DNA from: a virus
Strand: one strand, 5' to 3'
DNA length: 50,232 nucleotides
IMG/VR virus record: IMGVR_UViG_3300049006_000012
Span: 1 to 50,232 of that record
In this document: positions 19,681 through 38,821 of the stretch, piece after piece
How positions within the stretch are numbered: the first letter of the stretch is position 1
Layout: each line of letters opens with the position of its first letter
Made by a program: the position numbers and the translations under genes
Notes under the pieces: model-generated
The model's database searches: none
What the model was told of the DNA's origin: nothing
Seen by the model: the letters and a program-made list of their open reading frames with translations, nothing else

Positions 19681-19721
19681 TACCGTTGACCTCGCACTTC
19701 ACCGCTGGCGCGAGGGCCGGG
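19681..19721 (+). promoter_or_regulatory. Late promoter/leader element, copy A (major capsid)
   Basis: TACCGT (19681-19686) as -10, then the 20-base motif CCGCTGGCGCGAGGGCCGGG (19702-19721). The same 20 bases stand before three other late units. The motif can fold as CTGGC/GCCGG with a six-base loop. It would lie within the first bases of the mRNA. Confidence 0.65.
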
Positions 19722-19758
19722 TGTGACCACGTCACCCCCTTGCATCGGAGGCCCAGCG

Positions 19759-21513
19759 GTGAAACTGGCAGACCTGCTCAAGGCGATGAGCGACGACAAC
19801 GCGGACGTCCCCGGCCTCCTCGCAGGGGCCACACCCGAAGCCCTCGACGCGCTGGCCACCGCGATCGTGGAACAGTTCCAGGAGCTGCAGCAGGGCGACC
19901 TGACGAGCGAGTCCATCGACCGGATGGAACGCCTCGCCGACGCCCGCGACGCGGTGCGCGGCGAGGTCGCGAACCGGGACGCGGCGGCCGCCGAGGCCAC
20001 GGAACGCGTCGCGCAGCTCGCCCAGCGAATCAACGGCGGCGACGGCGACGGTGACGGCGGTGATGACGGCGACCCGGAAGGGCAGGGCGACGGAGACTCC
20101 GGTGGCGAGGACGACGACCAGCGCACCACTGGGGACCAGCAGGCCCCCACGGCGGACGCCCCGGACGGTGAACCGGTCGCGGCGGGTGATCCGGAGTTGG
20201 TGAACGCGTCGGCGCGCAAGCCGGTGAACCTCGCCGCGGTGAAGGCCCGCGCGGGCACCGCCCGCCTCCCGCAGCGCAACACGGGCCGGGCGACGATCAT
20301 CGCCGCCGCCGACCTGCCCGGCGTCCCCACGGGCGCCACCATGGACATGGACAAGTTGGTCGCCGCGGCCGAGGCCCGGTTCCGCGGGTTCCCGTCGTCC
20401 AAGCGCGGCAACGGCCAGCAGTTCAAGGCGTCGATCGCGTCCATCGAACGCCCGTTCGGGCAGGACGTGACGCAGTCCGCGGACACCGACAACGACTCCC
20501 CGCTCCTGGAGCGGGCGGTGGACCAGTCGCGGCTCCCCGGCGGGTCGCTCGTCGCGGCGGGCGGCTGGTGCGCACCGTCGGAGACGGTGTACGACCTGTG
20601 CGAACCGGAGACGGTCGGCGGGCTCGTGTCCATCCCGGAACTGGCGATCCGCCGCGGTGGCCTGCGCTACCCGGTGGCGCCGCTGTTTTCCGACATTTAC
20701 TCCGCGGTCGGGTTCCAGCAGACCGAGGCGGAGAACATCGCGGGCGAAGAGAAGGACTGCTACGAGGTGACGTGCCCGTCGTTCACCGAGGTCAGGTTGG
20801 ACGCGATCGGGGTGTGCATCACCGCCGGGATCCTGCAGCAGCGCGGCTACCCCGAGATGGTGCAGCGGGTGATCCGCGGTGCGATGACGGCGCACGCGCA
20901 CAAGGTCAACGCCTACGTGCTCGGCCGGCTGGAAGCTCTGTCCACGGCGGTCACCCCGGTCCTGGCCGGGTTCGGCGCGTGGGCCGACTCCCTGTCGTCG
21001 ATCGAGTTGCAGGTCGAGGACATCCGGTACAAGTACCGGCTCGATGAGAACGCGCAGATGGAGTTCGTGGCGCCGCGGTGGATGCGCGCCATCTTCCGCG
21101 CCGACCTGGCGGTGCGGGCGGGCGCTGACCCGAACAACCCGGCGACGAACGCCCAACTCGACGCGCACTTCCGCGCCCGCGGCGTCAACCCGCAATGGGT
21201 GCTCGACTGGCAGGACGCGTACGTCGACGGCGGCGCCGGCCTCGGCCGCGCAACACCGAACACGGCGTGGCCCACCGCGGGCAGGGTGCTGATGTACCCG
21301 GCCGGAACGTTCGTCAAGGGCACCGCGGACATCATCAGCCTCGACGCGATCTACGACTCGACCAACATTCGTACCAACTCTTACACTGCTCTGTTCACCG
21401 AGGAAGGCGCGCTGGTCGCCAAGCGGTGCATGGAGTCGCGTGTGTTGACGCTGGGCGCGCTGTGCCCGTCGGGCCGCACCGGCATCGGCGTCGCTTACGA
21501 CTGCACCCCGTAA
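19759..21513 (+). CDS. Major capsid protein with N-terminal scaffold domain
   Basis: GTG 19759 follows CGGAGG. Residues about 1-90 are helical and coiled-coil (delta/scaffold-like), followed by an acidic Gly-Asp-rich linker (about 95-130) and a basic stretch. From about 200 the HK97-type shell domain follows (SLVAAGGWCAPSETVYDLCE, VGGLVSIPELAIRRGGLRYP, ENAQMEFVAPRWMRAIFRADL, then VLDWQDAYVDGG, FVKGTADIISLDAIYDSTN). Placed after the protease and preceded by a late leader, as expected for the most abundant head protein. The N-terminal part is probably cleaved by the protease. Confidence 0.88.
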   Translation: MKLADLLKAMSDDNADVPGLLAGATPEALDALATAIVEQFQELQQGDLTSESIDRMERLADARDAVRGEVANRDAAAAEATERVAQLAQRINGGDGDGDGGDDGDPEGQGDGDSGGEDDDQRTTGDQQAPTADAPDGEPVAAGDPELVNASARKPVNLAAVKARAGTARLPQRNTGRATIIAAADLPGVPTGATMDMDKLVAAAEARFRGFPSSKRGNGQQFKASIASIERPFGQDVTQSADTDNDSPLLERAVDQSRLPGGSLVAAGGWCAPSETVYDLCEPETVGGLVSIPELAIRRGGLRYPVAPLFSDIYSAVGFQQTEAENIAGEEKDCYEVTCPSFTEVRLDAIGVCITAGILQQRGYPEMVQRVIRGAMTAHAHKVNAYVLGRLEALSTAVTPVLAGFGAWADSLSSIELQVEDIRYKYRLDENAQMEFVAPRWMRAIFRADLAVRAGADPNNPATNAQLDAHFRARGVNPQWVLDWQDAYVDGGAGLGRATPNTAWPTAGRVLMYPAGTFVKGTADIISLDAIYDSTNIRTNSYTALFTEEGALVAKRCMESRVLTLGALCPSGRTGIGVAYDCTP

Positions 21514-21520
21514 CACGGAC

Positions 21521-21583
21521 CTGGTGCGGCGCGGACGCTCCCTATCCATGAGCGGGGAGCTTCGGCATCCCGCGCCGCACCAG
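21521..21583 (+). terminator. Strong hairpin after the major capsid gene
   Basis: CTGGTGCGGCGCGG (21521-21534) is perfectly complementary to CCGCGCCGCACCAG (21570-21583); an inner stem pairs GCTCCC (21537-21542) with GGGAGC (21555-21560). It starts eight bases after the capsid stop codon. It likely terminates or attenuates transcription, or protects the 3' end of the capsid mRNA. Confidence 0.75.
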
Positions 21584-21633
21584 CCAGGCCCGGCCAGCAC
21601 CCCCGGTTACCACCGCCGCGGAAGGACCCACTG

Positions 21634-21972
21634 ATGACCCGCTTGATCGACACCCACGACGACGCCCACGCCCGCGACGTCGCCCGCGCGCTCATCCGCG
21701 CCGCGCACGACGCCGGCAAGGACGCGACGGCGGTGCGCACCGTCACCGGCACGAACGGCAGGCAGGCGTTCGAGGTAGACGATGACTTCCCCGACGTGAC
21801 TGTGCCCGAGCCGGACACCGACGAGGACGAGGCCGGCGGCGGCGACGAGCAGGAGCAGCCGCGGCGCCAGGCCAGGCAGGCGGCGAAGAAGACCGCCGCC
21901 GCGCCCGAACCCGCCGCGACGAACGGCGACACCACCAACGGCGACACCACCAACGGCGGCACCACCAAGTAG
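21634..21972 (+). CDS. Small acidic protein with NGDTT repeats
   Basis: ATG 21634 follows GGAAGGA. The first 45 residues are a helical domain (THDDAHARDVARALIRAAHD) resembling small head-tail proteins that follow the capsid gene in actinophages. The second half is disordered: acidic, then QARQAAKK, ending in three tandem NG(D/G)TT units encoded by a nearly identical 15-base DNA repeat at about 21922-21968. Possibly a head-associated protein; not certain. Confidence 0.65.
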   Translation: MTRLIDTHDDAHARDVARALIRAAHDAGKDATAVRTVTGTNGRQAFEVDDDFPDVTVPEPDTDEDEAGGGDEQEQPRRQARQAAKKTAAAPEPAATNGDTTNGDTTNGGTTK

Positions 21973-22031
21973 AGACCCACCCGAACGCCGAGGCGCGCAC
22001 GCGCTGCCCCGGCCGCAGGCCGCACCTGAAC

Positions 22032-22073
22032 TACCCTGACCACCAGGAACACACCGCTGGCGCGAGGGCCGGG
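22032..22073 (+). promoter_or_regulatory. Late promoter/leader element, copy B (tail tube)
   Basis: TACCCT (22032-22037) is followed after 16 bases by CCGCTGGCGCGAGGGCCGGG (22054-22073), identical to copies A, C and D, 30 bases before the next gene's ATG. Confidence 0.65.
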
Positions 22074-22102
22074 TGACCACTCGACACCGAGAGGACACCC
22101 TC

Positions 22103-22801
22103 ATGCCCGACACGATCTGCTTCCCACCGATCCGCGGCACCGTCATGCGCCTCACCCGCCTGTCCAACTGCGGCGTGCCCGTCGTCGGCCCCTGCTCGGT
22201 CATCACCACCGACGGGTTCATCACTGCGAAGATGACGCCGCAGTACGAGGCCGGCACCGAGACGATCGTCAAGAACGCCGCGGGTGCGCTCGCGATCAAC
22301 GACAAGGCGCCCGACGTCCTGAAGAACTACGACGTCGAACTGACGTTCGTCGGCGTGAACCCCGACGCCCTGGAAATGCTCGCCGGGTATGAGGCGCTCC
22401 TGGACAACAACGGCGACACCGTGGGCACCAGCTACGGGGAGTCGGTCACGACGGACGGCACCGCCGTCGAGGTGTGGACCGACATCGCCGGGATCTCTGA
22501 GTGCGCCGGGGGTGTGCAGCGGTACGGGTACCTGCTGCTGCCCTTCACCACCGGATACCGGGTCACGTCCGACATCACGATCCAGAACGATGCGGTGAAC
22601 GCCGTCGTGCAGGGCCGGACCAAGCGCGGCGCCGCGTGGGACGTCGGCCCGTTCGACGTCGTCATGAACGGCGTCGGGACGCCCGCCGCGGGGCCGCTGT
22701 TGACGCCCATCACCGCGTCGGAACACATGCGGCTCCTGACGACCACCGTGGCGCCGCCGGTCGTGACCGACGACTGCGGCTGCACGGCTCTCGCCGCCTA
22801 A
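22103..22801 (+). CDS. Probable major tail (tube) protein
   Basis: A 232-residue beta-rich protein from ATG 22103 after GAGAGGA. Its pattern (RLTRLSNCGVPVVGPCSVIT, TPQYEAGTETIVKNAAG, YDVELTFVGVNPDALEMLAG, GYLLLPFTTGYRVTSDITI) recalls tail tube proteins of actinophages that have the same Cys near the start and the same NPDAL motif. It has its own late promoter/leader, fitting a protein needed in many copies. The position before the connectors is unusual, so a decoration protein remains possible. Confidence 0.65.
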   Translation: MPDTICFPPIRGTVMRLTRLSNCGVPVVGPCSVITTDGFITAKMTPQYEAGTETIVKNAAGALAINDKAPDVLKNYDVELTFVGVNPDALEMLAGYEALLDNNGDTVGTSYGESVTTDGTAVEVWTDIAGISECAGGVQRYGYLLLPFTTGYRVTSDITIQNDAVNAVVQGRTKRGAAWDVGPFDVVMNGVGTPAAGPLLTPITASEHMRLLTTTVAPPVVTDDCGCTALAA

Positions 22802-22833
22802 CCCCGCGGGTGTGGCGTCGACAACATAAGGAC

Positions 22834-22873
22834 GCCCCGGCCGGGGGAGCCACCGACGCCCCTCGGCCGGGGC
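22834..22873 (+). terminator. Terminator-like hairpin after the probable tail tube gene
   Basis: GCCCCGGCCG (22834-22843) is perfectly complementary to CGGCCGGGGC (22864-22873) with a 20-base loop. It lies between the stop at 22801 and the ribosome site of the next gene, so it may lower expression of downstream genes relative to the tube gene. Confidence 0.6.
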
Positions 22874-22895
22874 CCTGCGGAAGGAACCCCCCGGC

Positions 22896-24095
22896 ATGGT
22901 GATGCCCAAGGTGACGGTCGCACCGCCGCCGCCCGTCCCGTTCCGGTACGGGCTGCAGTCCGTGGTGCTCAACCGCGCGGACAACCTCGACCGGGTCCTC
23001 GCCGGGGGCGTCGAGTGGGACTCCCAGACGTGCGGGTGGCGCCCGCACGCGTATGTGGACCCGTCGTGCAACGACGACGTCCTGTCCGGCGGCTACCTGT
23101 CGGTGCGGTGGGCTCCGGGCACCGACCCGGCGACCGCCGACCTGTACGCCACCCCGAACCTCGACCCGACCGCGGTAGAGAGCGGCCCCAGGTGGGCCTA
23201 CGTCACCGTCAACGGCGGACCTAAGCTGCGCGTCACCGCCAACACGCTGTTCGCGAACGTGACCCGCGGCGACGCGCTCACCCTCACCATGATCGACCCG
23301 TACTCCAACACCGCCGGTGACCCCGTGACCGTCACGATCCCGACCACCGGCACCGGCACCTACCTCACCGGCGGCGAGACACCGAGGATCGCCGGCGGGC
23401 TGCGGCCCACGATGGACGCCACCCCGGAGGCGGGGCCGCGCGACACGTACGGGCAGGGACCGTTCTCGGTGTTCATGTCGTTCGACTGCGCCGGCGTGCC
23501 GGCCGACCAGGCGCGGGACGTCCTGCAGCGTCGGTTCGAGGCGTCCGAGGCGGCGGCGGTCGAGGAGACCGTGTGGCACCGCACCCCGTTCGGATCGGGC
23601 ATGACCTCGTTCAAGGACTCGGCGTACAACCCGACGTGGCCCGACACCTCAACCGGCGTCGTGGACGCGGTCGCCCGCCTGGAGGAGGCGTTCTACTGGG
23701 ACCGCACCGAGCTGGGCATCATCCACGCGCCGCGGTGGGTGTACCCGCTCGCGGCCCACGCCGGGCTGATCGTCCGGGACCGCAACCAGCTCCGCACCCC
23801 CGCTGACACCCTGTGGGCGTTCGGCGTCGGATACCAGGCTTCCAACGGCCCAGCTGAGGCGACCGTGTCCGCCGGCGACGGCCAGGCGTGGATGTACATG
23901 ACGGGGCCGGTCGCGCAGTGGCGGTCGGACGTGACGGTGCAGCCCGACGCCGACGCCTCCCTCGACCGGTTCACCAACAACACCGGCCTCGTCGCCTACC
24001 GCACCTATGTGGTGGCGTGGGACTGCTACGTCGTGTCGACCATGGCGGACCTGAAGGCGACACCGGCGGCGGGCGGCGCGGGTGGCGGCTTCTGA
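22896..24095 (+). CDS. Phage structural protein of unknown role, 399 aa
   Basis: ATG 22896 follows GGAAGGA. N-terminal YGLQSVV and VEWDSQTCGWRPHAYVDP, an inserted beta domain (GGPKLRVTANTLFANVTRGD), then FSVFMSFDCAGVPADQARDV, EETVWHRTPF and TELGIIHAPRWVYPLAAH. From memory, proteins with this layout occur in other actinophages next to the tail tube or capsid gene and may be virion structural proteins. A Gly-rich C-terminus (GGAGGGF) overlaps the next ATG. Exact role unknown. Confidence 0.65.
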   Translation: MVMPKVTVAPPPPVPFRYGLQSVVLNRADNLDRVLAGGVEWDSQTCGWRPHAYVDPSCNDDVLSGGYLSVRWAPGTDPATADLYATPNLDPTAVESGPRWAYVTVNGGPKLRVTANTLFANVTRGDALTLTMIDPYSNTAGDPVTVTIPTTGTGTYLTGGETPRIAGGLRPTMDATPEAGPRDTYGQGPFSVFMSFDCAGVPADQARDVLQRRFEASEAAAVEETVWHRTPFGSGMTSFKDSAYNPTWPDTSTGVVDAVARLEEAFYWDRTELGIIHAPRWVYPLAAHAGLIVRDRNQLRTPADTLWAFGVGYQASNGPAEATVSAGDGQAWMYMTGPVAQWRSDVTVQPDADASLDRFTNNTGLVAYRTYVVAWDCYVVSTMADLKATPAAGGAGGGF

Positions 24096-24670
24096 TGGCG
24101 CTGCGCACCGACCTGTCGACTAGCACACCCCGGTCCGAGCACCCGGGGCAGCACAACGAGGTCAACCAAGCGGTCCTGGACCTGGAGGCCAAGCTGGGTG
24201 TGGCCGGCGGGATCGCCACGCTCGACGCCGTCACCGGGTACGTGCCCGACGCGCAGCTGCCGCCGACGGCGTTCACCGTCGGGTCACAGGAGGTCGGGTC
24301 CGAGGCCGAGCAGGTGGCGCTCGACGTGCCGCGCGGCTTCATCGCGATCCGCACCGACGAGAACCGCACCTACATCCGTAACGCCGGCACGGCCGGGACG
24401 ATCGCCGACTGGACACTGCTGCCCACCCCCACCGACGCGGTCCTGTCCGTCAACGGCCAGAACGGGACGGTGTCCCTGGGGGCCGCCGACGTCGGCGCCC
24501 AACCCGCCGACGACGACCTCACCGCGATCGCCGCGCTGACCCCGGCGAACAACGACGTGCTACAACGCAAGGCGGGCGGGTGGACCAGCCGCACCCCGGC
24601 GCAACTCCTCGCCGACCTGGGGATCAACGGCCCGACGTATCTCAGTTCATACAAGTGGGGAGTGGACTAG
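24095..24670 (+). CDS. Tail-fibre-like structural protein, 191 aa
   Basis: ATG 24095 overlaps the upstream TGA. The N-terminal RSEHPGQHNEVNQAVLDLEA helix is typical of phage fibre or appendage proteins that trimerise. Strands follow, then the fibre-type segment VLSVNGQNGTVSLGAADVGA and DDLTAIAALTPANNDVLQ, well known in tail fibres. Probably the attachment or shaft part of a fibre completed by the next three genes. Confidence 0.75.
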   Translation: MALRTDLSTSTPRSEHPGQHNEVNQAVLDLEAKLGVAGGIATLDAVTGYVPDAQLPPTAFTVGSQEVGSEAEQVALDVPRGFIAIRTDENRTYIRNAGTAGTIADWTLLPTPTDAVLSVNGQNGTVSLGAADVGAQPADDDLTAIAALTPANNDVLQRKAGGWTSRTPAQLLADLGINGPTYLSSYKWGVD

Positions 24671-24994
24671 ATGGCCGACACCGCGCGGCGCCTCGTCGGG
24701 CCGGTCCAGCTGGCGGCGGCGGCGGCGACCCTGTACACGGCGCCCGCCGCGACGACGGCGCTCATGCGGTACCTGCGCGTGGTCAACACCACAACCGGCG
24801 ACCGCACATTCACCCTGTCGCTCGGGGCCGACGCCGCCGGGACGCGGATCTTCCACGCGGTCACGGTGCCGGCCAGTGGCGGCGCGGCGGAATGGACCGG
24901 CCTCATCGTGATCGGCGCCGGGGAAATCCTGCAGGGCTTCGCGTCAACGGCGGCATCCTTGACGATCATCGTGTCCGGTGTGGAGGTCACCTGA
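24671..24994 (+). CDS. Small beta-rich fibre/virion protein, 107 aa
   Basis: ATG 24671 follows directly on the previous stop. An N-terminal segment VQLAAAAATLYTAPAATTAL leads into a beta-sandwich-like part (YLRVVNTTTGDRTFTLSLG; FHAVTVPASGGAAEWTGL; SLTIIVSGVEV). It resembles small fibre-associated or receptor-binding accessory proteins in phages. Coupled to the YadA-repeat gene by ATGA overlap. Confidence 0.65.
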   Translation: MADTARRLVGPVQLAAAAATLYTAPAATTALMRYLRVVNTTTGDRTFTLSLGADAAGTRIFHAVTVPASGGAAEWTGLIVIGAGEILQGFASTAASLTIIVSGVEVT

Positions 24995-25872
24995 TGGCGC
25001 TGAAGATCACCGGGGGCAAAGGGTCGACCGACACCGCCACCGTCAGCGGTGTCCCGTCGTTGGCGAAGGGTTTGTACGCGCACGCCGAAGGGACCGCGAG
25101 CAACGCGTCCGGCGACTACTCCCACGCCGAGGGCTACTCCACGATCGCGACCGGCGCCTACGCCCACGCCGAAGGGAACAGCACGATCGCGTCGAGCAAC
25201 GCCGCCCACGCCGAGGGAAACGCGTGTTACGCCACCGACCAGTACGCCCACGCTGAGGGCAGCGGCAGCCAGGCGCAGACGATGGCCGCGCACGCCGAGG
25301 GCCTGGGGACGACTGCGTCGGGGACGGCCTCCCACTCGGAAGGGTGGAACACCACCGCGAGCGGTAACTACGGCCACGCCCAAGGGGTCGATGCGATCGC
25401 GAACCGTCACGCCCAACACGCCCGGTCGGCGGGCCGGTTCACGGCCGTCGGCGACGCACAAGCTTGCGGCTATGTGGCCCGCCGTCAGACCGCGGATGCG
25501 ACGCCCGCTGCTTTGACGTTCGACGGCGGAGCGGTCGTCTTGACCGGGGCGGGCGCGAACGTGTTGACGGTGCCCGTAGACCGGGCGCACCAGTTCCGGG
25601 TGAACGCCGTGGCCCGCCGGTCCGATGTGTCCGGTGACGTGGCGGGGTGGGAGTTCCGTGGTCTCATCGGCCGCGGTTCATCCGGTGATGCGGCGATCGT
25701 CGGCACCGTTCAAGCGTCATCGTGGGGATCGGCCGGCGCCGCCGCCTGGGACGTCAGCTTGTCGGTCAACACCGCCAACGCCACCAACAACTACCTCGCG
25801 ATCACCGCCACGGGCGAGGCCGGCAAGACGATCAAGTGGGTCGCCAACGTCGAGACGGTCGAGGTCGGCTGA
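24994..25872 (+). CDS. Trimeric fibre protein with YadA-head-type repeats
   Basis: Encodes 292 residues. Residues about 28-139 hold eight 14-residue repeats of the form (Y/A)xHAEGxxxxASG (for example YAHAEGTASNASGD and YSHAEGYSTIATGA), the hallmark of YadA-like left-handed beta-roll head repeats found in trimeric adhesins and some phage fibres. A C-terminal beta domain follows (AVVLTGAGANVLTVPVDR; WDVSLSVNTANATNNYLAI). It should be a trimeric receptor-contacting fibre segment. Repeats six to eight diverge (HSEG, HAQG), as usual at the ends. Confidence 0.85.
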   Translation: MALKITGGKGSTDTATVSGVPSLAKGLYAHAEGTASNASGDYSHAEGYSTIATGAYAHAEGNSTIASSNAAHAEGNACYATDQYAHAEGSGSQAQTMAAHAEGLGTTASGTASHSEGWNTTASGNYGHAQGVDAIANRHAQHARSAGRFTAVGDAQACGYVARRQTADATPAALTFDGGAVVLTGAGANVLTVPVDRAHQFRVNAVARRSDVSGDVAGWEFRGLIGRGSSGDAAIVGTVQASSWGSAGAAAWDVSLSVNTANATNNYLAITATGEAGKTIKWVANVETVEVG

Positions 25873-26807
25873 TGCGCGCCGATGCGATCGCCGCCGGGCT
25901 ACCGGCCGCGGCGGCTAATGTTCAGCGGTTCGCAACCCCGGGCACGTGGACCTGGACCAAGCCGGCGGGGTGCTCGATCGTCGTGGTGCAAGCGATCGGC
26001 GCGGGCGGGGGCGGAGGCGGCGGGTGCCGGGTCAACTCCGGGAACGCAGGCGGGGGCGGCGGCGGCGCTGGCGGTTCGATGGTCATGCGCATGTTCCTGG
26101 CCTCGCAGTTGTCGGCGACCGAGACGGTGCAGGTGGGTGCTGGCGGTGCGGGCGGCGCCGGCGGGGCGACAGCTGGCGCTTCCGGTTCGGCCGGCGGTGC
26201 GCCGGGCCTGACGTGGTTCCGCGGCACCGACGTTCTCGGCCTGGCCCTGGCGGCGCCCGGTGACGGCGGCACCCTCACAGCCGCCGGGACGTTCGGCCTG
26301 GAATCCAACGTCACCGCCGGCTCATCCTTGGGCCTCGTCAACCCGATCAACCCGACCACGACCGGCTGGACCGGCCTGCGCGGCGGCGCCGGCGGCTACG
26401 GGTCCGCATACGGCCTCGACGGCTCCGACACGTTCGGCGATGAGACGGCCCGGTACGCCGCGTCCGGCGGCGGTGGCGGCGCCGGGAGCTCGTTCGGGTC
26501 CAACACCTACCTCGGTGGCGGCCTCGGCGGCGCCCGCGGCTACGGCACCATCCGCATCGCCGGTGCCGCGCGCGGCACCATCCTCGGGTCGGCGGGCAGC
26601 AACGGCACCGCCCCGGCCGCTGATCAGCCCGGGCTGGGTGGCGCCGGCGGGTCGTGCGGCGGCTCGGCTGTCGGCGGCGGCAACGGCGGCAACGGGTCCG
26701 TCAACGGCGGAGGTGGCGGCGGCGGCGGCTGCTCCCCGACGAACGGCGGGCCGGGCGGTAACGGCGGCGCCGGGGGTAACGGCCTGATCGTGGTGACGGC
26801 GTGGTGA
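25872..26807 (+). CDS. Glycine-rich fibre tip/adhesin-like protein
   Basis: ATG 25872 overlaps the previous stop. After an N-terminal strand region (FATPGTWTWTKPAGCSIVVV) the 311-residue protein has many Gly runs (for example residues about 43-50, 58-68 and near the C-terminus), separated by hydrophobic strands, ending GNGLIVVTAW. This fits glycine-rich phage adhesins whose Gly runs can pack as polyglycine-II helices and whose loops contact receptors. The WTWTKPAG start is typical of phage glycine-rich fibre proteins. Confidence 0.8.
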   Translation: MRADAIAAGLPAAAANVQRFATPGTWTWTKPAGCSIVVVQAIGAGGGGGGGCRVNSGNAGGGGGGAGGSMVMRMFLASQLSATETVQVGAGGAGGAGGATAGASGSAGGAPGLTWFRGTDVLGLALAAPGDGGTLTAAGTFGLESNVTAGSSLGLVNPINPTTTGWTGLRGGAGGYGSAYGLDGSDTFGDETARYAASGGGGGAGSSFGSNTYLGGGLGGARGYGTIRIAGAARGTILGSAGSNGTAPAADQPGLGGAGGSCGGSAVGGGNGGNGSVNGGGGGGGGCSPTNGGPGGNGGAGGNGLIVVTAW

Positions 26808-26814
26808 CGCGCGC

Positions 26815-27534
26815 ATGACCGCGCCCGGGCCGCCCACGGTGGCGCCGTGCGCCTGGAACCTCAACACGTCCGCGGTGCCCGGCTGGGCCGACGGGACACC
26901 GGATCAGCAGGCGACTGCGGAGGCGGTGGCGGTGTACGTCGTGTGGGCCTTGTCGGGGCGGCGCTTCGGCACGTGCCAGGTTGTGGTGCGTCCCGAGCCG
27001 CCGATCCCGCAGGTGTGCCGCCCGTACGGCCTGTGGCCCCTCGACCTGCCCGGCCCGGTGGCGTCGGTCGACAAGGTCACCGTGGACGGCGTGGACCTCG
27101 ACCCGGCCGAGTACCGCGTCCTGGGCGACGCCGTGTACCGGGACGAGCCGTGGCCGGTGCTGCAGGACCTGGCGTTGGATGACACCGAACCGGGTACATG
27201 GTCGGTGACGTACCGCCGCGGGCGGCCGGTGCCGGTGGCGGGGCAGTTCGCCGCCGGTGTGTTGGCCGGTGAGGTGTTGCGGTCGATCCGCGGCGTGGGC
27301 GGCGCGCGCATCCCGCTGCGGGCGCAGTCGATCGCCCGGGAGGGCGTGAGCATCCAGATGCTGGACCCGCAGGCGTTTTTGGACGGCGGGAAGACGGGCA
27401 TCCCGGAGGTCGACATGTTCCTCGCCGCATCCAACCCGCACCGGCTCTCCTCGGCGCCGCGCGTGTGGTCCCCGGACTTGCAGGCGGGCGAGCCGGTGGA
27501 GCTGTGGCCGTGGGAGCAGCGGGTGGTGCCGTGA
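26815..27534 (+). CDS. Head-tail adaptor (connector) protein
   Basis: The 239-residue protein has the actinophage adaptor pattern: an N-terminal helix with DQQATAEAVAVYVVWALSG, RRFGTCQVVVRP, CRPYGLWPLDLPGPVASVDK, VDGVDLDPAEYRVLGDAVYR and GTWSVTYRRG, then helix (GVLAGEVLRSIRGVGGARIP) and DMFLAASNPHRLS. These match gp6/gp15-like connector proteins that bind below the portal. The ATG is eight bases after the previous stop without a strong ribosome site. Confidence 0.8.
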   Translation: MTAPGPPTVAPCAWNLNTSAVPGWADGTPDQQATAEAVAVYVVWALSGRRFGTCQVVVRPEPPIPQVCRPYGLWPLDLPGPVASVDKVTVDGVDLDPAEYRVLGDAVYRDEPWPVLQDLALDDTEPGTWSVTYRRGRPVPVAGQFAAGVLAGEVLRSIRGVGGARIPLRAQSIAREGVSIQMLDPQAFLDGGKTGIPEVDMFLAASNPHRLSSAPRVWSPDLQAGEPVELWPWEQRVVP

Positions 27535-28100: not shown

Positions 28101-28106
28101 ATCGCG

Positions 28107-28349: not shown

Positions 28350-28403
28350 AAGGCACGCCGGGAGGCCGGGCCCGCGGGTCGCACAGCCACACGGGAAGGT
28401 GGG

Positions 28404-28892: not shown

Positions 28893-28916
28893 CCGGGCCG
28901 CCGCCCTTCAGAGTCG

Positions 28917-29684: not shown

Positions 29685-29688
29685 CCTG

Positions 29689-30255: not shown

Positions 30256-30284
30256 ACCTGACCGGGGCCGGCTCGCCCGCCCTA

Positions 30285-30317
30285 TACCCTGGCAGTGCCG
30301 CTGGCGCGAGGGCCGGG
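30285..30317 (+). promoter_or_regulatory. Late promoter/leader element, copy C (tape measure)
   Basis: TACCCT (30285-30290), the sequence GGCAGTG and then CCGCTGGCGCGAGGGCCGGG (30298-30317). The 7-base interval between -10 and motif is identical to copy D. Confidence 0.65.
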
Positions 30318-30355
30318 CCCACCATCCACCGCACGTGGGAGGGGTTCGGGGCCCG

Positions 30356-33300
30356 GTGACCAGCGCTTTCGCGGACGCCACAGTCGAGGTCATCGCCGAC
30401 TTCGACCGCTTCGACAACTCGTTCGCCCGCCGCCTGCGCAGCGCGGTCACGTCGGCGTCGGCGAACGTGCAGCGGTCCATGACCGGCATGAACACCTCGA
30501 TCAACTCGGTGATCCGCGGCATGGGCCGCCTCGCCGTGTCGTTCGTGGCGATCGTCGGTAAGGCCGCGCTCGCCGCGACGGCCGTCGCCGCGTTCTCCGC
30601 CGTCACAGCATCAGCCGGCCTGCACCTGGTGGCGTTCGTCGGGGCGCTCGGCCCCATGACGGGCTTGGTCGCTGCGCTGCCCGCCGCGATCGCCGGTGCC
30701 GCCGCCGCCATGGGCGTGTTCAAACTGGCGACGGTGGGCGTGAAGGACGCCGTGACGTCGCTCGCCGCCGGCGACCTCGACAAGTTCAACGCGGCGCTGA
30801 AGAACCTGTCGCCGAACGCCCGGGCGTTCGCCCAGGAGTTGCGGGCCCTCAAGCCGCACCTGGACTCGCTGCGGTTCGGGGTGCAGGACCGGGTGTTTGC
30901 CGGCATGGCCACCCAGCTGCGGACGCTCACGGCGTCCTTGCTGCCGGTGCTGCGGCGCGGCCTCGGCGGCCTCGCGGCCGAGATCAACGGCGCCGCGCGT
31001 CAGGTCGCCGGGTTCCTCGCCGGCGGCACCGCCCGCTCCCAACTGTCCGCGATCCTGGATTCGGCCAGCCGCTCGGCGCACAACCTGGGCGGTGCGGTCA
31101 CACCGATCATCCGTGCCCTGCTCGGGGTGGCGCAGGTCGGTGGGCCGGCGATCGAGCGGATCACCGCGGCGATCGGCCGCGCCGCCGAACGGTTCGCCGA
31201 CTGGGTGCGGCACGCCACCGAGACCGGCCGGCTCAAGGACATCCTCGACCAGGCCCTGGCGACCGCGAAGACGTTCGGCGGGGTGATCAGCGACGTCGGC
31301 CGCATCCTGGCGACGGTGTTCACCTCGGCCGCCGACGACGGCGGCGACCTGCTCACCAACCTCAAAGACATCACCGGCGCCGTCGCGGCGTTCCTCGACT
31401 CCACGCAGGGCGCCGAAGGGCTGTCGGATGTGTTCGCCTCGATCAAGTCCGCGGGCGACCCGCTCCTGAAGACCCTCGCGTCGGTCGCCGGGATCGTCAC
31501 CGACTCGATCGCCCCGATCTTCGCCCAGCTCGCCCAAGCGGTCGGGCCCGGCCTCGACGTCCTCGTCAAAGGCATCGGGGAAGGCATCGCGCTGCTGGTG
31601 CCGATCGCCGCCCCGGTCGGCGCCGCGTTCTCCGCGCTCGCCGCCGCCCTCGGCCCCGTGGCGGTGCAGGCCGGCCGTCTCGTCGCCGCGGTCCTCGGGC
31701 CGCTCGCCGCCGCCCTCACCGACATCCTGCCCGCCGTGTCGCCGCTGGTGTACCTCCTCGGCAACGCGCTGGTGTCCGCGGTGGAGACGCTCCTGCCGCC
31801 GTTCCTCGGCGTCGTGACGACCGTGGTCGACGCGCTGCCGCACCTTCTCGAACTGGGTCGGGTGCTGCTCGCCGCGGTGGTTCCGGCGTTCGCCTCGCTG
31901 CAACCCGCCCTCACGGTTTTGCTGCCGGCGCTCGGCGGCATCGCCAGCACGCTGGCCGGTTCGCTTGCCCCGATCCTGCCGCCTTTGGCGGCGGCGATCG
32001 TCAACGCGTTCGGCCCCATCTCGATCTACGCCGACTCGTTCGTGCAGCTCGCGAACGCGCTCGTGCCCGTCGTCCCCGCGCTCGCGCAGCTCCTGCCCGC
32101 ACTCATCGGACTGGTCCCCATGTTCGCGGACCTGGTCAATCTGCTCGCGCAGGGCCTCGTGCCGGTCCTGGGCGCGGTCATAGGCCCCATCACGGACCTG
32201 TCGAACTGGCTGACCCGCTACCCGCGGCTCGTGCAGGGCATCGTCATCGCGGTCGGGGCGTGGATCGCCGTGACCCGCGTCTGGACCGGGCTGCAGGCGA
32301 TCAAGGCGTGGTGGATGGCGCGGGAGGCGGCGCTGGCGGCCGCCGCACAAGCCAACGACGCGCGTGGTGTCGCGGCCACCGCGGCGTCGATCGCGATGAC
32401 CTACACCCGGATCGCGGCCGAGCGCCTGTGGACCGCGGCGCAGGCTGCGTCTGCCGGTGTGGGCCGGGTCCTGCTCGGGATCGCGTCGGGGCAGTTGATC
32501 AGGGACGCGGCGATCGCCACGTGGACCGGCGTCAAGACGGCGGCGACGTGGGCGTGGACCGCGGCGCAGTCCGGTGCGGCGATCGCCGCCGGCGTGTGGA
32601 CCGCCGCGCAATGGGCGCTGAACGTCGCCATGGACGCCAACCCCATCGGGGTCGTGGTCCTCGCGATCGTCGCGCTCGTCGGCATCATCGTGCTGGCCTA
32701 CAAGCACTCGGCGACGTTCCGCAACATCGTGCAGGGCTTGGGCCGCGGCTTCGTCGCCATCGCCGCCTGGATCGTGGACGCGGCGAAGGTCATCTGGCAG
32801 TGGATCAAGGTCGCGTTCAACTTCACGCCCATCGGGGCGTTCATCTTCGCGTTCCGGCAGATCATCAAGCACTGGGACGACATCAAGGCGGCGTTCGCCG
32901 CAGGGGCCGCCGCGATCGGCGGGTTCTTCGCCCGCATGGGCGGCTACGTCGTGGAGTTCCTGCAGTGGTACGTGTCGCTGCCAAGCAAGGTGTGGGACGC
33001 GCTCCTCGGGCTGGGTGCGGCGGTCGGCGGCGCTGTCGCCGCCGCCTGGGACTGGGCGTTCGCCGCGGTCCGCTCGGCGATAGCCGCGTTCATCGACCTG
33101 CACCGCCAGGTCGCGGTGCGCGTGCTCGGCGCCCTCGGCGCGTTGGGCGCCACCATCGGCGGCGCAATCTCGGCCGCGTGGAACTGGGCGTACACCGCGG
33201 TGCGCAACGGCATCGAGGCCGCGATCGCGTTCTACGCCGCCCTGCCGGGTCGGGTGTGGATTGCGCTGCTGTCGCTGCGCGACGCCCTGGCGGGCGCGTT

Positions 33301-35029
33301 CGGCAACGCTATGGCCGCCGCGCACGCCGCCATCAGCAACGGCATCGCCACCGCCCTCGGGTTCTTCGCCGGTATCCGGGACCAGCTCGCGGCGCGGCTC
33401 ACCGGCGCCGTCGACTGGCTCCGCGACGCCGGCGCCCGCATCGTCGAGGGTCTGTACAACGGGATCAAGGACCGGTTCCCGGCGCTGTTCGACGCGATGA
33501 AGGCCCTCGGCGACGCGCTCCCGAAATGGATCAAGGACGAGCTGGGGATCCGGTCGCCGTCGGCGGTCATGTACGAGATCGGGTCGTGGGCCGGGCAGGG
33601 GTTCGCGAACGGCATCACCTCGGAGCAGGCGCGGGTCAAGGCTGCGGCGCTTCGCCTGAAGATCGCCGCGGAGGACGGGGTGAAGGGCGCGAACCTCGGT
33701 GTCGGCGGCTCGGCGAACGCCGTGGAGCGGGCGTTGAGCGACGCACGGTTGTCGGCGATGCGCGCCGGTCCGGGCTCGGCCAACGCGATCGAGCACACCT
33801 ACATTCAGGCGCAGCGCGACAAGGAACTTGCGCAGCTGGCCGAGCTGGACCGGATCGCCGCGGGCCGCGGCACACGGGTCGGCGGCGGCGCCGGGACCGC
33901 GGCGACGTTCACGCCGCTGCCCGGGCTGGGCGGCTCGGCCGGCATGGGCATGGTGTCGGCCACGGCGACGAAGGCCGCAAAGACGTTGGCGGACAAGGCG
34001 GCAGCAGAGCTGGCGAAGCGTAAGGACGCGCTCGCCGCCGCGGGCAAGCTCCTCGGCGACGGGTTCATCCAGGGGCTCACGTCCACGAACGCGAAGATCA
34101 AGTCGACCGCGGACACCATGGCCAAGTTGGTCACCGCCGCCCTGGGCGCGGGCGGGGCGCGGCCGGTCATCGCCGCCATGGACGCCGACTCGCGGCGGCT
34201 GCGCGCCATGGCCGACTCGCGGGTCAAGGTCACTGCGGACCTCGCCGCCGCGCAGAAGCGCTTGGACGATCTGATGAGGGCGTCGGACAAGCTGCGGGAC
34301 TCGATCGCGGAGAAGGTCCGCGGCTCGTTCCAGCTGATCCCCGCGGCCGGCACACGGTCGGTGGAGGCGTTGATCCGGGACATGGGCCGGTCCGTGGCGG
34401 CGGCGCAGGCGTTCGCGCGGAACATCGACGCGCTCAAGGCCCGCGGTTTGGCGACGTCGCTGCTGCAGCAGCTGGCCGAGTCGGGTCCGGCCGCCGGGGG
34501 TGCGATGGCGGCCCGGCTGGCTCGGGCGTCGGCTGGGCAGATCGCGCAACTGTCGGCGATGTCGGGGCGGTTGGAGTCGGTGGCGACGGCGACCGGCGTG
34601 TCGGTGGCGGGCGCCATGTACGGGGCGGGGATCGCCGCGTCCCGCGGCCTCGTTGCCGGCCTGACGTCGCAGCGCAGGCAGATCGAGTCGGCGATGCTCG
34701 TCATTGCGCGGTCGATGGCTGCGGCGATCCGCCGCGCGCTCGGCATCCGGTCCCCGTCGTCGGTGATGATGCTGGTGGGGCAGCAGGCCGGCGCCGGCCT
34801 GGAGCAGGGTTTGTTGTCGCAGGTGGCGCCGATCCGGCGCGCCATGGCCACCGTCGGGCGGCAGGTGTCGGCGCCGGAGCTGACCGGGCGGATACCTTCC
34901 GGGGTGCCGGCCCAGCGGGCCGGCTCGGACCGGCCGGGGTTGCAGGTGAACAACACCATCAACTTGCCCACGGGCGACCCGGAGGCGGCGGCGTCGGCGG
35001 TCGTGAACCGCATCGCCGCCGCGATCTGA
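30356..35029 (+). CDS. Tape measure protein
   Basis: At 1557 residues it is the longest protein here, immediately after the tail chaperones. GTG 30356 follows GGGAGGGG. It has an N-terminal domain (SAFADATVEVIADFDRFDNS), long Ala/Val/Leu-rich hydrophobic regions (about 330-570), and repeated Trp-containing amphipathic modules (AAWDWAFAAVRSAI; SAAWNWAYTAVRNGI). The C-terminal half holds two copies of the tape-measure motif GIRSPS(A/S)VM followed by G..GL/NGI. It sets tail length and guides DNA entry; by the usual 0.15 nm per residue the tail would be near 230 nm. Confidence 0.93.
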   Translation: MTSAFADATVEVIADFDRFDNSFARRLRSAVTSASANVQRSMTGMNTSINSVIRGMGRLAVSFVAIVGKAALAATAVAAFSAVTASAGLHLVAFVGALGPMTGLVAALPAAIAGAAAAMGVFKLATVGVKDAVTSLAAGDLDKFNAALKNLSPNARAFAQELRALKPHLDSLRFGVQDRVFAGMATQLRTLTASLLPVLRRGLGGLAAEINGAARQVAGFLAGGTARSQLSAILDSASRSAHNLGGAVTPIIRALLGVAQVGGPAIERITAAIGRAAERFADWVRHATETGRLKDILDQALATAKTFGGVISDVGRILATVFTSAADDGGDLLTNLKDITGAVAAFLDSTQGAEGLSDVFASIKSAGDPLLKTLASVAGIVTDSIAPIFAQLAQAVGPGLDVLVKGIGEGIALLVPIAAPVGAAFSALAAALGPVAVQAGRLVAAVLGPLAAALTDILPAVSPLVYLLGNALVSAVETLLPPFLGVVTTVVDALPHLLELGRVLLAAVVPAFASLQPALTVLLPALGGIASTLAGSLAPILPPLAAAIVNAFGPISIYADSFVQLANALVPVVPALAQLLPALIGLVPMFADLVNLLAQGLVPVLGAVIGPITDLSNWLTRYPRLVQGIVIAVGAWIAVTRVWTGLQAIKAWWMAREAALAAAAQANDARGVAATAASIAMTYTRIAAERLWTAAQAASAGVGRVLLGIASGQLIRDAAIATWTGVKTAATWAWTAAQSGAAIAAGVWTAAQWALNVAMDANPIGVVVLAIVALVGIIVLAYKHSATFRNIVQGLGRGFVAIAAWIVDAAKVIWQWIKVAFNFTPIGAFIFAFRQIIKHWDDIKAAFAAGAAAIGGFFARMGGYVVEFLQWYVSLPSKVWDALLGLGAAVGGAVAAAWDWAFAAVRSAIAAFIDLHRQVAVRVLGALGALGATIGGAISAAWNWAYTAVRNGIEAAIAFYAALPGRVWIALLSLRDALAGAFGNAMAAAHAAISNGIATALGFFAGIRDQLAARLTGAVDWLRDAGARIVEGLYNGIKDRFPALFDAMKALGDALPKWIKDELGIRSPSAVMYEIGSWAGQGFANGITSEQARVKAAALRLKIAAEDGVKGANLGVGGSANAVERALSDARLSAMRAGPGSANAIEHTYIQAQRDKELAQLAELDRIAAGRGTRVGGGAGTAATFTPLPGLGGSAGMGMVSATATKAAKTLADKAAAELAKRKDALAAAGKLLGDGFIQGLTSTNAKIKSTADTMAKLVTAALGAGGARPVIAAMDADSRRLRAMADSRVKVTADLAAAQKRLDDLMRASDKLRDSIAEKVRGSFQLIPAAGTRSVEALIRDMGRSVAAAQAFARNIDALKARGLATSLLQQLAESGPAAGGAMAARLARASAGQIAQLSAMSGRLESVATATGVSVAGAMYGAGIAASRGLVAGLTSQRRQIESAMLVIARSMAAAIRRALGIRSPSSVMMLVGQQAGAGLEQGLLSQVAPIRRAMATVGRQVSAPELTGRIPSGVPAQRAGSDRPGLQVNNTINLPTGDPEAAASAVVNRIAAAI

Positions 35030-35049
35030 CGAGGGACGGGGGTGCGCGG

Positions 35050-36357
35050 GTGTATCACGGCTGGATGGCGCTGGGCGGGCAGGAGATCGCGAACGCGGAA
35101 CGGTTCGCCGCCTACACCGCCGCCCTCGGTCTGCCCACCTTGCATGATGCGGCGCGCTGCCCGCCGCTCGCCGCGGTCCTCGCCGACGACCCGTACACCG
35201 ACCCGGCGACCGGCCCGTGGGTCGACGCCGCGGTGCCCGCCTCCGCCGGCTTCGCCGGCCTGTACATCTCGGCGATCACCGGCCTCGACGCGGCGACGTC
35301 CGTGCGGGCGGTGACCGCCACCGCCGCCGGCTCCGGCGGTGTCCCGACGCTGGCGGTCAACGCCCCCCGCACCATGGCCGTCACCGGGTTCCTCGCCGGC
35401 GACTCCCCCGCCGCCCTCGAACACGGCCTGGCGTGGCTCGACGCCGTCCTGCACGACGACTGCGACCCGTGCGCCGGCGCCACCCTGTGCATGCTCGCCG
35501 ACTGCCCCGACTGCCCCCACGGTACGGACGCGCAGGCGTCGGCGTGCTGGGAGGAGCAGGCCCGCACGTTGCACGACGTGGTGTGCGTCGACGGGCCGCG
35601 CATCACCCAAGTTGTGGAGCTGTCCGGCTGCGGCGGACGCGGCCGGGGCGCGACGGTGGAGTTCACGCTCGTTGCGGCGGCACCGTTCATCCACCGCACC
35701 CCCGTGGCCCTCGCGGACGCGCTCACGTTCACGCCGCCGGCCCCGGACGCCGGCTGCGCGGTGCAGTGGTGGCCGGTCGGCCCGGGCCGGCAGGTGTGCC
35801 CGCCCACGGTCGGCTGCGACGCACCCACTGGCTGCCTCGTGGACCCGGCGCTGCCGCCGCTGCCGTCGATCCCGCGGGCGCCGCGCCCAGCCGTGGCGTG
35901 CGTGAACCGGACCCGGGCGGCGTGGGCCGCCGCGACCGCCACCCCCGGCCTGCTCCCGCGCTGGCTCGACTCGGTCCCGGTCATCACCGTCCGCCCCGGC
36001 CCCGCCCCGCTGCGCCGCCTGTCGGTGCTGGTCTACGACAACCCGATGCTCGTGGACGTCACCGACCCGGACCAGCTCGACCGCTGCTCCGTGCTCGCCG
36101 AGCTGAACGTCACCTACCTACCGCGGGATGTGGAGTTGGTGGTCGACGGGCGGGAGCAGCGCGCATACGTCACGTGTCCCGGCGGGGGTCGGGACAACGC
36201 CGACGGGGTGGTGTTCGGCGCCGACGGGGGGCCGTGGCCGTGGCCGCGGCTCGTGTGCGGCGCCGCGGTGTCCGTCGTCGCCCTGGTCGATGACGCCTTC
36301 TACGACCCGGCGGCGACGGTGTCGGTGGCGCTCGCCGCCCGCCAGGACGTGGCATGA
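35050..36357 (+). CDS. Minor tail protein (distal tail type)
   Basis: GTG 35050 lies after GAGGGACGGGGG. The 435-residue product opens YHGWMALGGQEIANAERFAA, as distal tail proteins of actinophages do, with a Cys-rich insertion (CDPCAGATLCMLADCPDCPH) and TAVLVYDNP-type strands later. Directly downstream of the tape measure, the distal tail protein forms the ring linking tube to baseplate. Overlaps the next gene by ATGA. Confidence 0.8.
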   Translation: MYHGWMALGGQEIANAERFAAYTAALGLPTLHDAARCPPLAAVLADDPYTDPATGPWVDAAVPASAGFAGLYISAITGLDAATSVRAVTATAAGSGGVPTLAVNAPRTMAVTGFLAGDSPAALEHGLAWLDAVLHDDCDPCAGATLCMLADCPDCPHGTDAQASACWEEQARTLHDVVCVDGPRITQVVELSGCGGRGRGATVEFTLVAAAPFIHRTPVALADALTFTPPAPDAGCAVQWWPVGPGRQVCPPTVGCDAPTGCLVDPALPPLPSIPRAPRPAVACVNRTRAAWAAATATPGLLPRWLDSVPVITVRPGPAPLRRLSVLVYDNPMLVDVTDPDQLDRCSVLAELNVTYLPRDVELVVDGREQRAYVTCPGGGRDNADGVVFGADGGPWPWPRLVCGAAVSVVALVDDAFYDPAATVSVALAARQDVA

Positions 36358-37397
36358 CGGAGCTGGGGTGCCCCGACCGGTACACGGTGGAGGTGCGGGT
36401 GCGGGGCGGCGCGCGCGTCGTCGGGCGCCTCACCGGCGTGCAGACGGTGAAGTGGTCGCGGGTGTTGACGGGCACGTCGGAGGCGTCGGTGGTGATCGTG
36501 CCGCGCGCCGCCGCGTGCCAGGAGCTCCTCGACCGGGCCGAAGGGTGGGCGTACGAGCTGGCCGTGTGGCGCGACGACGAGATGGTGTGGTGCGGGCCGC
36601 TGATCGACAAGGACGACTCCGGGACCGATGTGACGCTCACGGCGCGGGACGTCACCGCCTGGTTGCCGCGGCGCCTCGTCCACGACGGCTACGACACGAC
36701 CGTGTCCGATGACGGCATGGACCTGGCGGTCGTTGCCCTGCGGGTCCTGGTCGACGCGTTCGAACCGGATGACCCGGACGTGATCCGGCACGCGTCGGTG
36801 GTCGAGGCGGGGGTGCGGATCAACGACCGGGCGGTGGAGGCGGAGACGGTGATGGCCGACGCCGAACTCGCCGACCTGGTGAAGCTCGGGTTGGACTGGA
36901 CGGTGGTGGGGCGGCGCATCGTGGTGTTCTCCAACCGCCGGCCCCTCTCGCGTATCCCCGCGCTGGGGGCGCCGCACTTCACCGGGACGTTGCCGGTGCG
37001 CGTCGCCGGCGGCGACGTGGTGACGCGGTGCGTGGTGCAGGGCGGGGGGGTGCGGGGCGTCGCCGGCGGGGTCCACCCGGTGTACGGGCTGCTGGAACGG
37101 CTGGAGACGCAGACGTCGGTGGGTGATGACGACGACGCGGCGCACGCCGCCCGCGCCGCCCTGTACACCCCGAACATGCTGGTCGCCGGCGGTGACCTGG
37201 GGTTGACGGCGCTCGCACCGGTGTCGATCGCGGACCTGGTGCCGGGGGTGCAGTGCACGGTGGCGGGCCGGGGGGCGGCGGTCAACGTCGCCGCTGACAT
37301 GCTGCTGACGAAGGTGGCCGTGGAGTGGACGGGTAGCGGGGAGGCGGTCGGGGTGACGTTCACCGAGGCCCACGACCGGTCTGGGCAGGTGGAGTGA
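36354..37397 (+). CDS. Minor tail protein (baseplate hub type)
   Basis: A 347-residue protein: YTVEVRVRGGARVVGRLTGV, VKWSRVLTGTSEASVVIVP, VWRDDEMVWCGPLIDKDDSG, VTLTARDVTAWLPRRL, resembling tail-associated hub proteins in the second position after the tape measure in actinophages. It would form the central hub of the tail tip. The stop overlaps the next ATG (TGATG). Confidence 0.78.
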   Translation: MTELGCPDRYTVEVRVRGGARVVGRLTGVQTVKWSRVLTGTSEASVVIVPRAAACQELLDRAEGWAYELAVWRDDEMVWCGPLIDKDDSGTDVTLTARDVTAWLPRRLVHDGYDTTVSDDGMDLAVVALRVLVDAFEPDDPDVIRHASVVEAGVRINDRAVEAETVMADAELADLVKLGLDWTVVGRRIVVFSNRRPLSRIPALGAPHFTGTLPVRVAGGDVVTRCVVQGGGVRGVAGGVHPVYGLLERLETQTSVGDDDDAAHAARAALYTPNMLVAGGDLGLTALAPVSIADLVPGVQCTVAGRGAAVNVAADMLLTKVAVEWTGSGEAVGVTFTEAHDRSGQVE

Positions 37398-38773
37398 TGG
37401 TGCGGCCGATCCCCCCCGACGCGGATGCGATGCGCACCCTCCTCACCCGCATGAAGACCCAGTTGGAGCAGTTGGCGAACCGGGCGCAGGTGACCGTCGG
37501 CAAGCGGTGGCAGGTGCGGGAGGACCCCAAGACCGGCGATCTGGTGGCGTCGATCCCGTCGAGCGGCCGCAAGGTGGTGCTCGCCACCCCCGACGGGACG
37601 TGCGGGCTCGTCGCGGGCTGCGTCGCCGACGCGTTGGACCTGACGCTGCAGTTCAGCGGGGAGAAGGCGCCGCGGCTCGGCGCCCGCATCTCCGAGCAGG
37701 CCGGGAACACGCTCACCCGCGGAGACGACGGCGGCCTGTACGCCGGCGGCGGCGCCGGCGGCTGGGCCGAGCTTTCGGGGCCGCACCTGGCGCCGGAGCG
37801 AACGACGTGGCCGAACGAGGTCGGCCCGTCCGACGCCGCAGATTACCCGGGGCTATGGACCTTCCCGGACGGGCCGTACGGGACGCCGCTCACCCCCGGC
37901 ACCGACCCGCTCGGCAACTGGAACCCTGGCGCGTTCGGCACGGCGTTCGACGGGTTCCCATTCACCTACTCCAAGGCGCACGCGCCACCGGGTGAGCTGT
38001 CACTGCACTTTCCGGCGCAGACCGGCGCCACAGCGGAAGGCGGGTCCTACGCCGGCGTCGAGTGGAACATCGTGCCGTGGGACGAGTGGTATGTGCCATA
38101 CGGGGTCAACGCCCGGTGGGTCGGTGCCGGTGTCGACGCCGACTTCACGTGCGTGTTCACCGGGCCGTGGCCCACGATCGCGCCTGGGCCGCTGCCGCCG
38201 GACCGGTTCATGGACGCCATGCCGGTCACGTACTGCCTCCTGAACTTCTGGCCCGGGTTCTCCCTGTACGTGGAGGACGGCTACCTGTGGGCGAAGGCCG
38301 CCCCGGTGGGGGCCACGTTGACGAGGAACACGACGTTGGGTGTGGACGCGAACAGGCGTTGGGCCGAGACCTATTTCGCGCGGTGGCAGCCCGGCGCCGG
38401 CACGTACACCACACGGCAAGGGACGCGGGTGCCGTTGGACGTCCCGGTGCGGTTCCGGGTCCAGTTGCGGCGCGCCGGGCAGAACGTGGTGTGGGTGTAC
38501 ATCGGCGACGACGTGGCCACCCGGCCGGTCGAGCAGTTCGACACGTACCTGTCACTCGGCCCGGCCGGGATCAACTTCGACTACTGCCTCGGGTCGCCGC
38601 CCAACTTCGCGTTCGGCCCGCAGGTCGGCTGGAACGAGTTCCTGTACCCCTACGACCCGGTGACGGACACGCCGGCAGTGACGGTGCCGGAGATGTGGAT
38701 GACCGATGTGAAGCTGCGCATCGGCCTGCCTGATCCGGTGTGGTGGCCGCCGCCGCCCACGAACCCGACCTAA
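37397..38773 (+). CDS. Minor tail protein, 458 aa
   Basis: ATG 37397 lies in a TGATG overlap. An N-terminal helix (RTLLTRMKTQLEQLANRAQV) and VGKRWQVREDPKTGDLVASI lead into a Trp/Tyr-rich beta region (FPFTYSKAHAPPGELSLHFP; WNIVPWDEWYVPYGVNARWV) that may be a carbohydrate-binding or jelly-roll-like domain. Position in the tail tip module suggests a host-contact component. Confidence 0.72.
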   Translation: MVRPIPPDADAMRTLLTRMKTQLEQLANRAQVTVGKRWQVREDPKTGDLVASIPSSGRKVVLATPDGTCGLVAGCVADALDLTLQFSGEKAPRLGARISEQAGNTLTRGDDGGLYAGGGAGGWAELSGPHLAPERTTWPNEVGPSDAADYPGLWTFPDGPYGTPLTPGTDPLGNWNPGAFGTAFDGFPFTYSKAHAPPGELSLHFPAQTGATAEGGSYAGVEWNIVPWDEWYVPYGVNARWVGAGVDADFTCVFTGPWPTIAPGPLPPDRFMDAMPVTYCLLNFWPGFSLYVEDGYLWAKAAPVGATLTRNTTLGVDANRRWAETYFARWQPGAGTYTTRQGTRVPLDVPVRFRVQLRRAGQNVVWVYIGDDVATRPVEQFDTYLSLGPAGINFDYCLGSPPNFAFGPQVGWNEFLYPYDPVTDTPAVTVPEMWMTDVKLRIGLPDPVWWPPPPTNPT

Positions 38774-38788
38774 GGCCGCCGCGGCGGT
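38774..38788 (+). repeat. Small palindrome after the 37397 gene
   Basis: CCGCCGCGGCGG (38776-38787) is a perfect 12-base palindrome directly before the -10 of leader copy D; it may help end the upstream transcript. Confidence 0.35.
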
Positions 38789-38821
38789 TACCCTGGCAGT
38801 GCCGCTGGCGCGAGGGCCGGG
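38789..38821 (+). promoter_or_regulatory. Late promoter/leader element, copy D (tail fibre)
   Basis: TACCCT (38789-38794), GGCAGTG and CCGCTGGCGCGAGGGCCGGG (38802-38821). Together with copy C this is a 33-base identical block from -10 to leader end. Confidence 0.65.

Follow-up and report, generated by a model that had tools for sequence, protein, structure and literature searches.

The question raised by this locus is what is done by a 20-base sequence that recurs, letter for letter, ahead of the structural genes of a virus, and whether it belongs to the promoters of those genes or to the transcripts that they would produce. For most actinophages little is understood of how the late genes are controlled, and many of these phages carry repeated intergenic motifs of unknown function. 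The window, by which we mean the whole stretch of DNA that was analyzed, is the 50,232 bases of the virus record IMGVR_UViG_3300049006_000012, with 72% G+C and with gaps between predicted genes making up ~8% (7.6%) of its length. Its left part has integrase genes; terminase, portal, capsid, and tail genes occupy the central part, and genes of the holin/spanin-like and RecT-like types come after these on the right. A tyrosine integrase and a serine recombinase-like protein are encoded 2.4 kb apart in the same phage (1412-2446 and 4889-5794), and an ORF with collagen-like repeats (PF01391, 41482-42174) has the tail-region genes on one side and the holin-like gene on the other. The protein at 12017-12490, adjoining the terminase gene, carries the PHROG label "Rnase E" (phrog_645), a doubtful label for what reads more like a small-terminase-type protein. 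The features on which the argument turns are the following.

19626..19657 (approximate limits), +, strong GC hairpin, downstream of the preceding genes and ahead of promoter A; -24.8 kcal/mol centroid, z -1.1
19681..19686, +, -10-like hexamer TACCGT of promoter A, 15 bases before motif A
19702..19721, +, 20-nt leader motif, copy A, exact sequence match
19759..21513, +, major capsid protein gene (phrog_777), GTG start with GGAGG ribosome-binding site, 37 nt after motif A
22032..22037, +, -10-like hexamer TACCCT of promoter B, 16 bases before motif B
22054..22073, +, 20-nt leader motif, copy B, exact sequence match
22103..22801, +, major tail (tube) protein gene (phrog_792), ATG start, 29 nt after motif B
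30285..30290, +, -10-like hexamer TACCCT of promoter C, 7 bases before motif C
30298..30317, +, 20-nt leader motif, copy C, exact match; 33 bases from the -10 on are the same as in D
30356..35029, +, tape measure protein gene (phrog_6090), GTG start, 38 nt after motif C
38789..38794, +, -10-like hexamer TACCCT of promoter D, 7 bases before motif D
38802..38821, +, 20-nt leader motif, copy D, exact sequence match
38852..39583, +, gene for an unclassified tail-region protein, GTG start, 30 nt after motif D

The repeated block and the hexamers upstream of it

A search of the whole window confirmed what a sequence-only reading had reported, namely that CCGCTGGCGCGAGGGCCGGG occurs exactly at 19702, 22054, 30298, and 38802, and added that all four copies are on the + strand. 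No further site was found in the window at up to 4 mismatches, and the next-best matches, at 5 mismatches, are scattered chance sites; in shuffled sequence 0.14 matches are expected at up to 3 mismatches. All four copies sit in intergenic gaps, and in an unbiased search for 13-mers common to at least three gaps, this was the sole such family in the window. Copies A and B have 24 bases in common (CACCGCTGGCGCGAGGGCCGGGTG), while copies C and D are identical over 33 bases from TACCCT through the end of the motif, again as the sequence-only reading had it. The flanks thus fall into two types, A/B and C/D, that are unlike each other outside the 20 bases, and the presence of the same 20 bases in two dissimilar settings suggests that all 20 are under selection, although four invariant copies could alternatively have arisen by recent duplication and spread, or could reflect a DNA-binding site. 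The decayed copy that had been suspected at 19586-19620 is not significant, since an alignment at least as good is obtained in 16 of 2836 windows.

A TACCCT or TACCGT hexamer precedes every copy, at distances (15, 16, 7, and 7 bases) that agree with the 7 to 16 bases originally noticed. TACCCT occurs three times on the + strand, each time at a motif copy (B, C, and D), and TANNNT is found just 25 times on that strand in 50 kb, so that the chance of one lying 6-17 bases upstream is 0.006 per copy and 1.3e-9 for all four. A sigma-70 -35/-10 scan of 19400-39200 gave no match and no -35, the 60-base stretches preceding the four hexamers hold nothing in common beyond chance (P 0.23 and 0.47), and the stretches from motif to start codon likewise hold nothing beyond chance that is common to all four. 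A shared upstream activator site was considered and rejected, there being no common sequence upstream of the -10s. The hexamer is also not restricted to late genes: TACC(C/G)T precedes a pair of divergent genes in the form of hexamers at 9970 (-), ahead of the leftward gene at 9921, and 10050 (+), ahead of the rightward gene at 10109, in both cases with no motif. We also observed that a 13-mer containing the -10-like TACCGT, GTGTACCGTAACC, lies in two gaps in opposite orientations, at 10047-10059 (+) and 45218-45230 (-). Ahead of promoter A, the GC hairpin at 19626..19657 is, from its predicted folding, a possible terminator lacking a T tract.

These results divide the original proposal of a dedicated late promoter with a shared leader. 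The dedicated promoter is not supported, given the motif-free hexamers at 9970 and 10050, the missing -35, and the absence of any common upstream sequence, whereas the shared element of the late units stands, tied to a -10 and placed in what is expected to be the 5' untranslated leader. Because the only common late-specific element sits downstream of the -10, it would be transcribed, and it is better described as a 5' leader tag than as a dedicated promoter. That the motif is probably the shared 5' leader of the late units is the best-supported statement that we can make, and a shared part lying downstream of an ordinary -10 would mean that control is exerted at the level of the transcript or in early elongation, and not in promoter recognition. 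If that is true, the four short sites would form a compact system in which the late regulation of a GC-rich phage could be tested.

Genes and leaders behind the motif

The identities given earlier to three of the downstream genes hold. Gene A encodes a major head protein (phrog_777, E=1e-166), gene C the tape measure (phrog_6090, E=2e-82), and gene B a major tail protein (phrog_792, E=5e-71) whose match begins at residue 5 and thereby sets the ATG at 22103 as the start codon. The fourth gene had been called a tail fibre, and this part is not borne out by any family, as gene D has no PHROG, Pfam, or NCBIfam match. Its sole relative, a protein of PIS 136 that is similar in length and carries another annotation, aligns from residue 1, and for that reason we chose the GTG at 38852 over the ATG at 38915 favored by the gene caller. 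The sequence of gene D holds GDGSVANPYTIS-type repeats, which occur in phage tail proteins, and on that ground a tail-associated product is plausible, with its identity as a tail fibre unproven.

The CTGGC/GCCGG hairpin that had been proposed within the motif proved weak. Folded alone, the motif (CUGGC-GCGAGG-GCCGG) forms a stem of 5 bp capped by a loop of 6 bases (-8.6 kcal/mol, z -0.8). In growing leaders this stem is the first to form, but in most of the four it then gives way to other pairings. When 64 gene starts are ordered by folding z-score, the four leaders as a group take places 2, 5, 13, and 16, and the accessibility of their start regions is low (0.28-0.34), below that of most gene starts in the phage; this predicted folding signal is no more than suggestive. 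A translational switch in which the motif pairs with the start region was considered and rejected, as the ranks of that pairing (3, 17, 36, and 57 of 64) are no better than those of other genes. Searches of the window returned no Rfam match above the gathering score and no tRNA.

A possible role in the transcript, and its alternatives

The account that we prefer is that RNA polymerase of the host type starts at -10-only promoters (TACCGT or TACCCT), whose activity we infer from the hexamers, ahead of the capsid, tail tube, and tape measure genes and the tail-region operon. The start site would be expected 5-10 bases past the hexamer, which would place the 20 bases at or almost at the very beginning of each mRNA, 29-38 bases upstream of the start codon. 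A phage factor, a host factor, or the polymerase itself might then recognize this stretch in the nascent RNA, and recognition could either enable elongation across the late operons, which are long and GC-rich, or set its timing, in the manner of nut/put-like processive antitermination. Recognition as RNA is suggested by the facts that the motif would be transcribed if the promoters are real, that its distances to the -10 and to the start codon vary, that its strand is fixed, and that nothing else is shared; a gap to the -10 of 7 in one pair and 15-16 in the other, with a start distance of 29-38, fits an RNA element better than a promoter part. We favor elongation over translation control because the motif lies nearer to the transcription start than to the ribosome-binding site and because start-region pairing is not enriched, and this is a preference, not a demonstration. 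Taken whole, as a common late 5' leader on -10-only promoters that is read in RNA and acts on promoter-proximal elongation, the account falls a little short of an even probability. The antitermination step on its own is rather unlikely, and no antitermination protein was recognized in the phage; the stricter form, in which each late operon would begin with a minimal RNA tag of 20 nt that licenses processive antitermination, alone or with a phage protein, is less likely again. If it were true, it would constitute a short new nut/put-like system with a separate copy at each late promoter rather than one late antiterminator site.

The main rival to an RNA element is a DNA operator, in which a phage protein would bind the 20-bp duplex after the start point and either block initiation or elongation in lysogeny or help it late. 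We consider this possible but somewhat unlikely. The motif is asymmetric, intergenic, and oriented with transcription, as stoperators are (PMC9283540), many relatives carry dispersed palindromic operator-like repeats, and the phage has integrase genes together with an NsdA-family regulator at 6779-8089 (-). A repressor would nevertheless have to act at the immunity region or at early promoters, and the lack of any copy at the probable immunity region, at an early promoter, or in a leftward region (the neighborhood of the NsdA-family regulator included) counts against a repressor operator; moreover, the operators of relatives are palindromic, present in both orientations, and variable, whereas the site in the window is invariant, and its spacing to the -10 shifts by 8-9 bp. 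The regulator itself, a TPR-like protein (NCBIfam NF053720, E=3e-45) divergent from the gene at 8122 and with no match in the phage collection, is a possible lysogeny regulator. At the start of its gene, beside a TAAGGT hexamer at 8102 (-), there is an inverted repeat (GGTTTGC...GCAAACC, 8069-8100) that could be an operator.

Still within the transcript, the element might protect the 5' end of the mRNA or control late-gene translation, for which the T4 gene 32 leader offers a precedent for a stabilizing 5' leader (cited in PMC8948821). The structured leaders and poorly accessible starts described above speak for such a role, but the pairing ranks do not, the distance to the ribosome-binding site is variable, and a generic 5' hairpin would have no need of an invariant loop and flanks, so that we regard it as quite unlikely overall; mRNA protection is the next most likely role at the RNA level after antitermination. 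It is improbable that the copies are module-boundary repeats, that is, short homologies at operon borders used for module exchange, or the products of a recent duplication, with no regulatory role: their placement at the borders of head, tail, and fibre-region modules, the RecT-like annealing protein at 42591, and the 33 bases common to C and D would all suit this, but the tie to a -10 is strict, the orientation relative to transcription is single, and the flanks have diverged where the 20 bases have not. The length, orientation, and repetition of the 20 bp before late genes would also fit the promoter of a phage-encoded single-subunit RNA polymerase or of an alternative sigma factor, but this is very improbable, given that no polymerase or sigma gene was found among the proteins searched (some small ORFs fell outside that search), that the site is almost pure G+C and so unlike a melting region, and that a host-type -10 lies upstream of each copy.

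Relatives and comparison with known systems

The arrangement of the motif was found in no other phage or prophage searched. Relatives identified by their capsid proteins in IMG/VR and the phage collection share no more than ~45% identity, and the motif is absent at up to 3 mismatches from all 16 relative contigs searched. Exact 17-mer and 16-mer scans of IMG/VR and a 20-mer scan of GTDB genomes, which yielded one match per record, gave no site with the arrangement seen in the window; none of the 89 sites checked among the 16-mer matches repeats it, and of 39 sites found with two gapped patterns combining -10 and motif, 6 are intergenic and none has a matching leader. The capsid protein recovered no prophage relatives in genome contigs, and tail tube and portal queries recovered none among viral contigs. 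The motif is thus unique among the collections searched, from which records very near the window may be absent.

When the same repeat search was applied to relatives, it returned two kinds of repeat. The first are palindromic operator-like sites, present in both orientations and variable between copies, in G003 (TTTAGTCACCAAA), G009, G011, G013, G016, and PIS 136; the G003 family has 17+5 copies and is similar to a palindrome in L019, CGTTTAGTCACTAAACGG, that lies at 1771 and 7452, upstream of the capsid gene and of one other gene, and has an incomplete third copy near 10761. The second are promoter cores, in Quhwah (TAGACTATAGGTGTAAGC, the published EC motif, recovered as the positive control of the search), Pam4 (TGTGCGTATACTCGTGCC), and phiAsp2 (TTGACACTTCACAGTCAAGCC followed by a TAATGT/TAAGGT-type -10). 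None of the relatives with repeats has one lying wholly downstream of the -10. In Pam4 (L175), the asymmetric, promoter-like repeat has seven copies at up to 4 mismatches, all on the + strand (1316, 2001, 10712, 33235, 35508, 37126, and 40994), most with a CTTCC-like block upstream.

The claim that no equivalent had been described needs qualification, as repeated, one-orientation intergenic motifs before genes are already published for actinophages, among them those of Microbacterium clusters EC, EI, and EG, the SAS/ESAS, and stoperators (PMC7302621, PMC3203893, PMC9283540). The cluster EC motif (TAGaCTATaGGTgTaAgC, PMC7302621) of Quhwah, whose capsid gene is homologous to that of the window, is likewise short, asymmetric, and repeated in one orientation in gaps, at 21-30 bases from start codons, and is associated with a -10-like hexamer, which it contains. 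It differs in consisting of a promoter core and the few bases that follow, in keeping a fixed register, and in being found mainly ahead of early or non-structural genes. The window motif is found only before late genes and wholly after the -10, at a gap of 7 or 15-16, with the -10 inside the conserved stretch only in C and D. The repeat of Pam4, whose capsid is the closest by BLAST in the phage collection, resembles it in strand and in its position in gaps before genes, but is a promoter core with TATACT and not a downstream leader. Cluster A mycobacteriophage stoperators share its asymmetry, intergenic position, and orientation with transcription, yet they are 13 bp long, variable, present in more than 20 copies that also occupy early promoters, and bound as DNA by the immunity repressor (PMC9283540), whereas the window motif has four copies, late only. 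The SAS/ESAS of clusters K and EF are also repeated motifs of unknown function before genes, but they occupy the ribosome-binding site, with 3-7 bp to the start, and in cluster K are confined to the non-structural right half of the genome (PMC3203893, PMC7302621); the window motif is 29-38 nt from the chosen starts.

Among RNA elements, HK022 put RNA is similar in being transcribed just past the promoter of a long operon, but it is ~70 nt with two stem-loops (PMC9378689), compared with 20 nt and one weak hairpin here, where antitermination is a proposal. The boxB of a nut site has a 5-bp stem and a purine-rich loop, to which the hairpin of the window, formed by the motif alone at z -0.8, may be compared; reading of the four copies revealed nothing T-rich and boxA-like in the interval from the -10 to the motif. 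The leader of T4 gene 32 is also a phage 5' mRNA leader with a proposed hairpin, but that hairpin is a very stable CUUCGG one, reported to stabilize mRNA (cited in PMC8948821), and the hairpin in the window is ordinary. The comparable published repeats that we examined are promoter cores or operators, and what appears to be new here, with respect to the open-access literature, is an invariant 20-base block that would lie wholly within the expected transcript and that precedes late genes only.
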